Of a stretch of 64,000 bases of DNA, positions 60,199 to 63,476 are shown one piece after another. Position numbers and translations under genes: made by a program. Position 1 is the stretch's first letter. Each line of letters starts with the position of its first letter. This DNA is from Alteracholeplasma palmae J233. GTDB lineage: Bacteria; Bacillota_I; Bacilli_A; Acholeplasmatales; Acholeplasmataceae. The stretch covers positions 965,499 to 1,029,498 of the forward strand of contig NC_022538.1 of NCBI RefSeq assembly GCF_000968055.1, read 5' to 3'. Below the pieces are notes generated by a model, which was not told where the DNA came from, ran no database searches, and worked only from the letters and a program-made list of their open reading frames with translations.

Positions 60199-62511
60199 TT
60201 ACTTTAGGCTTACAACTGTCACTCCGTTTAGCCCTTCTCCTTCTTTTCCGAAGCGATATGAGTCAACATAGGGTGATTTTTTCAAATATTCATAAACTGC
60301 ATTTCTTACAGCACCTGTACCAAAACCATGGATAATTCTGATAAAAGGCATGTTTGCCAAGAAGGCTTTATCCATTGCCTTATCGATAGCATCACCTACT
60401 TCTTCGTATCTGTATCCTCTTAAGTCAAGTTCGATGGATGCATTTTTATTAGGAGTTTGTCCCTGAAGTTTAACCTTTTTTTCTATCTTAGTTTTAGTTT
60501 TACTTTGATTTTTTTCAAGTTCTAAATCATTTTTAGGAAAACTTAAAGTAAAACTACCAAATTCTACTAGATACTTATTATTCGTGATTTTTTTGACAAT
60601 CCCTCTTTGTTGGTAGGATTTAATTAAGACAATATCATTTACCTTAATCTCTTCTTTATTTTCTAGTTTAGGAGTTGTTATTTCTTTATTAATTTGATGC
60701 TTAGCTTTTGCTAATTCAGGTTGACTTAGTTTTTCTTTTTGTTTCAGTTCTTCAATTAAAGAACTTGCTTGTGCTTTTAGTTCATGCCACTTAATTTCTT
60801 CTTTTTCTTTAACTTTTTTAAGTTCATTTTCAAATTCTACTTGTTGTTTTTTAAGTTCATTTTCATATGATAATTTAGCATTTAGTAATTCTTTTTTACT
60901 TTGTTCTAAAGATAATTTTTCTTCTTCAAGCATTTTTTTCTCATGATTCAGTCTATCAATCACTTTAGTTAAATCAGACTCATATCTTTTACTTAACTCA
61001 GTTGCCTCTTTGATAACTGACTCTTTTAATCCAAGGCTTTTAGCAATTAATAAAGCATTAGATGAACCACTAATTCCCATTTGTAGTTTATAAAGTGGTT
61101 TTAATGTTTCATGATCAAAAGCCATGCTAGCTGGAATAATTTCTTTATGTTCAAAGCCGTATTGCTTAATTTCAGAATAGTGGGTTGTTACTAGCAAAGT
61201 TACTTTGTGTTTTCTAATTTCATTTAACAATGCCATCGCAAGAGAAACACCTTCATTAGGATCTGTTCCGCTTCCAATTTCATCAATTAAAATAAGTTGG
61301 TTATCATCTAGGGTATCAATCATTTTTTTAAGTTTAACTAGATGTGATGAGAATGTAGATAAGGATTGTTCAATCGATTGTTCATCACCAATATCAGAAA
61401 ATATTTTATGATAAATACTAAGTTCACTTTCACTATCTAGTGGAACTAAGATTCCTGATTGCATCATTAATGTTAAGAGTCCTACTGTTTTTAAAACAAC
61501 TGTTTTACCACCCGTATTAGGTCCTGTAATAAGCATAATTGGTCGTTCTTTAGTTAATTTTAAATTCAAAGGGACAATCTTGTCTTTATCAATTAAAGGG
61601 TGTCTACCATTAATAATATGGATGTTACCATTACTATTAATTTTAGGAATACTTGCCTCAATTTCTATTGCATAACATGCCTTTGCATGAACAAAGTCAA
61701 GGTAAGTTAATTGTTTTAAATTTTTATATAAATTTTCTTTTTCTGCAAGAATATCGCTTGTAATAATCATTAAAACTCTATTGATTTCTTGTTGTTCTAA
61801 ATTATTCAAGTGTTCTAAATCTTGAGTTGCTTGTCTAATATCTTCAGGCTCAATATAGATAGTTTGTCCAGTTTGAGAAACATCATGGATAATCCCATTA
61901 ACTTTATTTTTATAAGTTTCTTTTATTCCAATACAATATCTAGAATTTCTTAGTACAATAACAGATTCATTTAGGTAACTTGAATATTTTGTTAAAAGTT
62001 TGCTTAAAACATCATTTATTTTTTCGTTTTGTTTTTTAATTGATTTTCTTATACCAAATAATTCTACTGTTGCTTGATCTTTAATTAAATTTTTATCATC
62101 AATATAGTGATCTAATTTTTTAATCAAGGTATCGTTATTTTCTAAATTAAATAGTTCTTCAATTTGAGTATATGATTTTTTATCTTTTATACGTTGGTAG
62201 TACTCTTTTACTTCTTTTTCTAGTTTTAAGTATAGTTTTACTAAGAGAATTTCTTCTAAATTTAAAAAACCTGTTTTATCACTTTTCTCAATCAAATAAA
62301 AAATATCAAAGTCTTGCACAAAAGGAACTTTACCATAAGCATAGTTTAATCTTAAAAGCTCATCGGTTTCCGCAAGTAACTTTTTTATTTTTGTTATATC
62401 AGTAATTGGGCTTAATAAAGTTATATGTTTCTTTGCAGTTTGCGTGTATGCATATTTCAATATTCTTTCTTGAATTTCCAAGAACTCTAGAGTTTTTAAA
62501 TCAAAGGTCAT
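60199..62511 (-). CDS. mutS2: MutS2 family ATPase with Smr endonuclease domain
   Basis: 770 residues. The MutS core and clamp (about 1-300) precede Walker A GPNTGGKTVVLKT, LIDEIGSGTDPNEG (Walker B) and the TTHYSE block. A long Lys/Glu coiled coil (about 510-620) and a KOW-like part lead to the C-terminal Smr domain with LDLRGYRYEEV and IIHGFGTGAVR. It lacks the mismatch-recognition domain I. In Bacillus MutS2 acts in ribosome collision rescue, and elsewhere it suppresses recombination. It diverges from the rnhC-like gene. Confidence 0.95.
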   Translation of the reverse strand: MTFDLKTLEFLEIQERILKYAYTQTAKKHITLLSPITDITKIKKLLAETDELLRLNYAYGKVPFVQDFDIFYLIEKSDKTGFLNLEEILLVKLYLKLEKEVKEYYQRIKDKKSYTQIEELFNLENNDTLIKKLDHYIDDKNLIKDQATVELFGIRKSIKKQNEKINDVLSKLLTKYSSYLNESVIVLRNSRYCIGIKETYKNKVNGIIHDVSQTGQTIYIEPEDIRQATQDLEHLNNLEQQEINRVLMIITSDILAEKENLYKNLKQLTYLDFVHAKACYAIEIEASIPKINSNGNIHIINGRHPLIDKDKIVPLNLKLTKERPIMLITGPNTGGKTVVLKTVGLLTLMMQSGILVPLDSESELSIYHKIFSDIGDEQSIEQSLSTFSSHLVKLKKMIDTLDDNQLILIDEIGSGTDPNEGVSLAMALLNEIRKHKVTLLVTTHYSEIKQYGFEHKEIIPASMAFDHETLKPLYKLQMGISGSSNALLIAKSLGLKESVIKEATELSKRYESDLTKVIDRLNHEKKMLEEEKLSLEQSKKELLNAKLSYENELKKQQVEFENELKKVKEKEEIKWHELKAQASSLIEELKQKEKLSQPELAKAKHQINKEITTPKLENKEEIKVNDIVLIKSYQQRGIVKKITNNKYLVEFGSFTLSFPKNDLELEKNQSKTKTKIEKKVKLQGQTPNKNASIELDLRGYRYEEVGDAIDKAMDKAFLANMPFIRIIHGFGTGAVRNAVYEYLKKSPYVDSYRFGKEGEGLNGVTVVSLK

Positions 62512-62567
62512 TTCCTTAGCCTACAACTTTTCTTAATTTTATGTTATAATGTAATTGAGGTGTGTCC

Positions 62568-63428
62568 ATGAAACATTATACAATGAATTTGTCTGAGTCT
62601 CAACTAAATCAATTAAAAAATGGTTATAGCAGTTTTATAAAGGCTTCTGATAGTGAAGCTGTCTTTTTTATTGCAGAGCATAATCAGACCACTATCACAG
62701 CTTTAAAAAATGGTAAAGTTACCATTGAAGGAATTGAAATTAATAATGAATTAGTTTTAATTAAGAATTTTTTAAATATTAAGGATTACGAGGCAGTTGG
62801 TTCTAGTGATGCTGGATCACTAGATGTTTTTGGCCCTGTTGTCATTTGTTCTACTTATGTCTCTTTGGAAGATATTGCTTTTTTAGAAACCCTTGATATC
62901 GGTATTCAAAGAACTATTTCAATGAAAAAAATAGTTGAGATTGCCCCTATTATAGCAAAAAGGCTTACTCACTCAATTGTCATACTAAAACCTTTTAAGT
63001 ATAACGAGTTATCTAAAAATGGATTTAACATGAATAAGATTAAATCGCTTCTTAATAACCATATGATTATTAAAACAACGGCTAAAATTGATAAAACTAT
63101 TCCTGTTATTCTAGAACAATACTGTAATCCAAATAATTATTTCAATTATTTAAAGGAAGAAAAATTAGTCTATAGAGATATTGAGTTTAGTGAAAAATCA
63201 GAAACTCCACATATTAGTGTTTTAGTCTCTTCTATTATCGCTAAGTATGCTTACTTAGTTGAGATGCATAGACTGAGTAAAAAACTTAATCTGAAATTGA
63301 AACTTGGTGCTACAAAAGATGTTGATGAACAAATTCTTGAAGTCGTTAATACTCATGGTTCTAAAGTTTTAATTGAAGTGGCTAAGTGCAATTTCAAAAA
63401 CATCACTAAGCAAAATATTGAATTTTAA
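62568..63428 (+). CDS. rnhC: RNase HIII homologue with altered catalytic residues
   Basis: 286 residues with the RNase HIII layout: an N-terminal TBP-like RNA/DNA-binding domain (about 1-65), then the RNase H domain. The normal GSDEVGTGDxFGP reads GSSDAGSLDVFGP here (S80 D81 where D-E stands). The DSKK block reads IQRTISMKK. The DQF-type Asp is Glu183 in ILEQY. Only the late Asp region near 251-253 and the closing EVAKCNFKNIT are conserved. It is probably catalytically dead or changed, yet the frame is intact. ATG 62568 follows GAGGTG; GTG 62562 is inside that site. Divergent from mutS2. Confidence 0.8.
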   Translation: MKHYTMNLSESQLNQLKNGYSSFIKASDSEAVFFIAEHNQTTITALKNGKVTIEGIEINNELVLIKNFLNIKDYEAVGSSDAGSLDVFGPVVICSTYVSLEDIAFLETLDIGIQRTISMKKIVEIAPIIAKRLTHSIVILKPFKYNELSKNGFNMNKIKSLLNNHMIIKTTAKIDKTIPVILEQYCNPNNYFNYLKEEKLVYRDIEFSEKSETPHISVLVSSIIAKYAYLVEMHRLSKKLNLKLKLGATKDVDEQILEVVNTHGSKVLIEVAKCNFKNITKQNIEF

Positions 63429-63433
63429 CATTA

Positions 63434-63476
63434 AACAATCTACCCATTTTTAAAATTTGAGTAGATTGTTTTTTAT
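63434..63476. terminator. bidirectional terminator between the rnhC-like gene and the end gene
   Basis: 11-bp perfect stem AAACAATCTAC/GTAGATTGTTT with a 17-nt loop; A/T-runs on both sides allow use in both directions. Confidence 0.87.

Follow-up and report, generated by a model that had tools for sequence, protein, structure and literature searches.

How does an RNase HIII gene keep its reading frame open when most of the active-site residues that it encodes have been replaced, and what might still select for its product? The question is raised by a gene near the end of the window (the whole 64-kb stretch of DNA that was analysed), in which it stands divergent to mutS2. The gene and its surroundings comprise the following features.

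60199..62511, minus strand: mutS2, divergent head-to-head neighbour of rnhC, separated from it by a 56 bp gap
62542-62550, plus strand: extended -10-like box TGTTATAAT upstream of rnhC, identified by eye
62557-62562, plus strand: ribosome site GAGGTG, 5 nt ahead of the rnhC ATG, identified by eye
62568..63428, plus strand: rnhC ortholog (RNase HIII), catalytically altered, 286 aa, with AlphaFold2 and PDB matches
62568..62777, plus strand: TBP-like N-domain, residues 1-70, with the fold kept and hybrid-contact residues changed
63434..63470, no strand assigned: terminator-like repeat, inverted arms AACAATCTAC...GTAGATTGTT with a T run after them, identified by eye

By fold, length and locus beside mutS2, the frame at 62568-63428 is a true, vertically inherited RNase HIII ortholog. 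It runs uninterrupted for 286 aa and, as it holds no in-frame TGA, codes 4 and 11 give one protein, so that a separate code 4 reading was dropped. In a profile search the product matches TIGR00716 over positions 2-284 of 284 (E=8.7e-46), its 156.5 bits falling narrowly under the curated equivalog cut-off of 161.2 bits, and further matches are found to PF01351 (E=2.8e-20) and, N-terminally, to DUF3378 (E=1.8e-6). The nearest solved structures (2d0a, 3asm, 3vn5 and 4py5) are all RNase HIII, and an AlphaFold2 model of the product (pLDDT 92.2, pTM 0.82) is almost identical to an intact relative in secondary structure and has 3asm and 2d0a, the RNase HIII of Bst, as its top Foldseek matches. The initial annotation had described an intact frame of RNase HIII length with its own ribosome site, and such a frame is what we find. 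The -10-like box was not picked up by a simple promoter scan, which needs a -35 hexamer, and the terminator-like repeat, which sits between rnhC and a convergent GH3-like gene, was missed by a hairpin scan for which its loop is too long.

The site at which RNase H3 cuts is well described: in T. ammonificans (Ta) it comprises Asp78, Glu79, Asp180 and Glu206, together with a GxG motif and a DSK loop, and in the Bst and Aae enzymes all four carboxylates matter, while the DSK is termed essential (PMC4132731). Aligned to intact enzymes, the corresponding parts of the window gene are as follows.

62802..62825, plus strand: motif 1, codons 79-86, S-S-D-A-G-S-L-D for S-D-E-V-G-T-G-D
62904..62912, plus strand: codons 113-115, I-Q-R for D-S-K (substrate-phosphate loop)
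63114..63116, plus strand: codon 183, Glu for the third catalytic Asp (Bst Asp202, Ta Asp180)
63201..63203, plus strand: codon 212, the fourth catalytic carboxylate (Ta Glu206), Glu unchanged

The metal-site residues of the product are S80-D81-E183-E212, as against D-E-D-E in intact RNase HIII: the first catalytic Asp has become Ser, positions 81 and 183 each exchange one acid for the other, and E212 is as before. Motif 1 is altered at the first two catalytic acids and at the second Gly of GxG, a motif that now reads GxL (G83-S84-L85). As judged from the alignment, the active site, that is metal site, GxG and DSK together, is dismantled. The residues singled out beforehand (S80-D81, the missing DSK block and E183) are borne out, the DSK now reading I113-Q114-R115; it had also been said that most of the catalytic acids were lost, and here the loss of the first Asp stands but 'most' does not, because three of the four positions are still acidic and only the first Asp is truly gone. 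We considered whether a DEDE arrangement could be restored from shifted residues, since codon 81 may, at the DNA level, be the old GAT of the first Asp, displaced by an inserted AGT and a later loss; the D81 so derived stands at the Glu position in the protein alignment, and no DEDE arrangement is recovered.

Changes extend to the N-terminal domain. It had been called conserved, which describes its fold and not its hybrid contacts. Position 46, at which Tyr or Phe of RNase H3 stacks on the DNA sugar (PMC4132731), is Leu in the window product, and 89 of the 90 intact homologs have an aromatic residue there. Position 54 is Glu as against Gln in 76 of the 90, and replacement of the Q54 equivalent in the Bst enzyme led to a 40-fold loss of activity and lower affinity (PMC4132731). 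N48 was ruled out as a third lost contact, Asn being common there in intact relatives.

Motif 1 is also unusual at the level of DNA, where its codons coincide with an inverted repeat.

62802-62824, plus strand: perfect 9-bp hairpin TCTAGTGAT-GCTGG-ATCACTAGA, over codons S79 to D86

Because these codons now form a perfect hairpin, motif 1 was perhaps wrecked by one template-switch event; we suggest that a switch at a near-palindrome could have altered several of its codons in one step. The predicted RNA fold of the 51 nt around the hairpin has -16.4 kcal/mol (z -2.3). Its sequence is missing from the DNA of the sister genus and occurs once in the genome, which rules out a repeated element at motif 1. 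Some 16 separate perfect 9-bp hairpins lie across the 64 kb window, from which we estimate the chance of one falling exactly on motif 1 at roughly 0.5%. A T-rich stretch follows the hairpin, so that the whole resembles an intrinsic terminator inside rnhC.

How common is such a gene? Nine key positions were scored across the order Acholeplasmatales, in 95 sequences of RNase HIII, a set in which some genomes appear twice. An unbroken DEGG-DSK-DE or DEGG-ESK-DD signature was present in 91, and the active site is complete in all eight genomes of the sister genus (g12); the suggestion of a dead RNase HIII conserved across the lineage finds no support in these counts. The four broken signatures belong to the window gene and to genomes G019, G045 and G006, each differing from the others and with nearly all positions hit. 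No relative among the 95 sequences shares the lesions of the window gene, nor does any intact relative in this order-wide set tolerate any of its active-site changes. Thirteen of the 34 columns that do not vary among 43 intact relatives have changed in the window gene, far more than chance would give; at columns invariant among the others, no single intact relative shows more than three changes. The broken sites of G019 (L060) and G045 (L061) lie in open frames, that of G045 far more eroded than the window copy, and the G006 gene (L062) is truncated; neither G019 nor G045, both with a dead RNase HIII, has an RNase HI match, which speaks against redundancy with RNase HI as the cause. The sole congener (G001) gave no RNase HIII match, and its contig stops inside truB, before trxA-mutS2-rnhC, with mutS2 absent as well; it is therefore uninformative on rnhC loss and was dropped as evidence of it. 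In a phytoplasma subgroup (L002, L004, L005, L053-L055) a DSK to ESK change is paired with Glu to Asp at the fourth catalytic position, this ESK/DD type comprising 11 sequences, some of them duplicates.

How RNase HIII could come to lose its catalysis is simply explained by the rest of the genome (a single contig of 1,554,229 bp, 99.87% complete), in which the presence of another RNase H had been put forward as a point to check. It encodes a predicted RNase HI (L014), a 146-codon frame in which all DEDD residues are present, and a predicted RNase HII (L012) with complete DEDD and DSK (GTDEAGRG, DSKKL, TDAMP, GDQ). Kochiwa et al. (2007; PMC1950709) described mutual exclusion of RNases HI and HIII through functional redundancy and reported no mollicute with genes for both. 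RNase HI is rare in f1 and f5 genomes; among those at least 85% complete it occurs in three of six with broken or not-found HIII as against four of 71 whose HIII is intact (Fisher p=0.008, or p=0.016 without genomes that merely lack a match, statistics that ignore kinship). Family f3 has intact HIII in none of 36 genomes and RNase HI in 28 of the 36, again uncorrected for relatedness. Counter-examples to exclusion exist, as RNase HI coexists with intact HIII in G004, G050, G026 and G075; two of these, G050 (L063) and G004 (L064), hold a stand-alone RNase HI, which shares about 62-65% identity with that of the window genome, beside intact HIII, contrary to strict exclusion (PMC1950709). In G006 (L066, on C10) a 666-aa frame joins the RNase HI domain to a C-terminal part that is helicase-like, and in G026 (L067) RNase HI lies in a 341-aa frame. 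The window genome resembles the exclusion model (PMC1950709) in being an RNase HI lineage in which RNase HIII function appears lost, and differs from it in that both genes are present, HIII as a broken intermediate with an intact frame. Takeover of hybrid cutting by RNase HI is probably the reason for the loss of the RNase HIII site.

If the enzyme became dispensable, its gene might simply be decaying, and its rate of change would at first sight agree. The tree branch of the window HIII has 0.96 changes per column, and those of the sister genus have 0.28-0.46; the mutS2 branches are alike (0.96 in the window genome, 0.93-1.01 in the sister genus), so that HIII alone is accelerated, 2-3.5 times over the sister-genus rate. 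We simulated neutral change starting from three sister genes until an equal number of invariant residues had changed. The simulations predict 7.5-9.3 stops where none is observed (P of no stop at most 0.0025), and 6.4-6.9 stops with the same bound on P when motif 1, as one possible event, is left out. Ten of the 13 changes at invariant sites are BLOSUM62-positive, with a mean of +0.92 as against about -0.9 under neutrality; without motif 1, eight of nine are conservative and the mean is +1.44 as against -0.9, a value as high being reached in none of 2000 simulations. Among columns at least 90% conserved, 10 of 14 at functional sites are changed as compared with eight of 44 others (p=0.0004, for a set chosen with the lesions in view), and A219L is the only non-conservative change there outside functional sites. 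The three codon positions remain clearly unequal in their divergence from G034 (0.34, 0.24 and 0.54). Free neutral decay of rnhC is rejected by this test, which presumes no selection throughout the period of invariant-site change. The pattern would be that of a protein whose catalysis is lost while selection on its fold is kept, one that slow weakening followed by recent death would partly resemble. As no second genome has the same dead form, maintenance is inferred here from one sequence and from models.

The reading that we favour, and to which we give about an even chance, is that the window rnhC encodes a former RNase HIII turned pseudoenzyme, released from catalysis by redundancy, with its fold still under selection. 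RNase HI would have taken over the bulk of hybrid removal and so relieved RNase HIII of its catalytic task; motif 1 would have been lost through a small cluster of changes, perhaps in the single template switch considered above; and purifying selection would persist on the folded protein. The selected role would be non-catalytic and based on the fold, most likely the binding of another protein or of a nucleic acid other than a classic hybrid. Alternatively, selection may act to keep an expressed protein harmless.

A less probable but still serious explanation is plain decay, in which RNase HI made HIII dispensable, the enzyme weakened gradually, and the death of motif 1 is so recent that there has been too little time for stops. 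This account draws on the intact RNase HI and HII genes of the same genome, on the published mutual exclusion (PMC1950709) and on the accelerated HIII branch; the truncated G006 and more eroded G045 copies could be its later stages, and conservative swaps fit an enzyme that retained some activity while it weakened. Against it are the six to nine stops simulated at the observed level of change and conserved scaffold residues that, outside functional sites, are nearly untouched. Moreover, any one of three lesions (IQR in place of DSK, D183E and the altered N-domain) should have been enough to disable the enzyme, which makes it improbable that activity ended only with the most recent one.

The initial annotation had proposed a retained, non-nucleolytic role in binding R-loops or hybrids, perhaps with MutS2 at collisions or in recombination. 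Selection on the frame, the more general part of this proposal, is supported by the simulation and the substitution pattern; binding of R-loops as the selected role we consider improbable. In its favour, frame and predicted fold are kept, an RNase H3 N-domain taken by itself does bind RNA/DNA hybrid, though weakly (PMC4132731), and the head-to-head pairing of rnhC with mutS2 recurs in all 40 genomes in which both were located on one contig, G045 included, with gaps of 38-171 bp. But R-loop binding is weakened because substitutions affect hybrid-holding residues of both domains: Leu at position 46 and Q54E in the N-domain, Leu for the second Gly of GxG and Arg for the Lys of DSK in the catalytic domain. 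The same neighbourhood also surrounds intact enzymes; the head-to-head order is ancestral and order-wide, an ordinary arrangement that lends no support to a special partnership of the dead form with MutS2, so that the adjacency is not the sign of a MutS2-linked role for which it had been taken. Elsewhere in the order, the mutS2 of G050 (C1:986750-989063) appears split, with query residues 1-555 in an open frame and 528-770 carrying four stops, so that the gene may be broken while the adjoining rnhC is intact, and three phytoplasma-type genomes (G008, G021 and G030) retain rnhC but gave no match for mutS2.

There is similarly little chance, in our view, that the protein is a still active nuclease with a rebuilt S-D-E-E metal site, perhaps with a new choice of metal or substrate. 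Three of the four positions still carry a carboxylate, the D to E, E to D, K to R and F to Y changes are conservative, and at the DNA level motif 1 can be read as an insertion ahead of a retained GAT codon. However, the first Asp is now Ser where all four carboxylates matter in Bst and Aae (PMC4132731), and DSK and GxG are lost together, when no intact relative tolerates any such change. A sequencing or assembly artefact at motif 1, to which a perfect hairpin found once in the genome and precisely over the motif might point, is very improbable given the lesions elsewhere (DSK, E183, A219L and the N-domain), which respect codons and leave the frame open, in a nearly complete single-contig genome.

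Compared with known systems, the window protein is like RNase HIII (RnhC; TIGR00716; Bst 2d0a, Ta 4py5, Aae 3vn5) in length, two-domain fold, full-length sequence and mutS2 neighbour, and unlike it in having SDEE for DEDE, GxL for GxG, IQR for DSK and two changed N-domain contacts. Pseudoenzymes are enzyme folds without catalysis that are retained for binding or regulation. The window rnhC resembles them, at the level of sequence and predicted fold, in that functional-site residues are lost while scaffold and frame are kept. Our literature search found no inactive RNase H homologs, nor the term 'pseudoenzyme' together with RNase HIII. A broader and rather doubtful reading is that RNase HIII has more than once in the Acholeplasmatales (in this genome, in G019 and perhaps in G045, with different lesions and an open frame in each) become a protein that no longer cuts but is maintained for a new function of its fold, which may lie, for example, in replication or transcription conflicts.

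We regard the proposed redundancy-released pseudoenzyme as being of moderate interest, a tidy intermediate in a kind of evolution that is already known; the chance that it has a genuinely new function is small. If the reading is right, the published model of HI/HIII redundancy would here be caught in mid-course, with RNase HIII broken yet not gone and apparently selected. The RNase HIII fold would then be useful beyond cutting, and the gene would be a case for annotation in which 'RNase HIII' should not imply an active enzyme.
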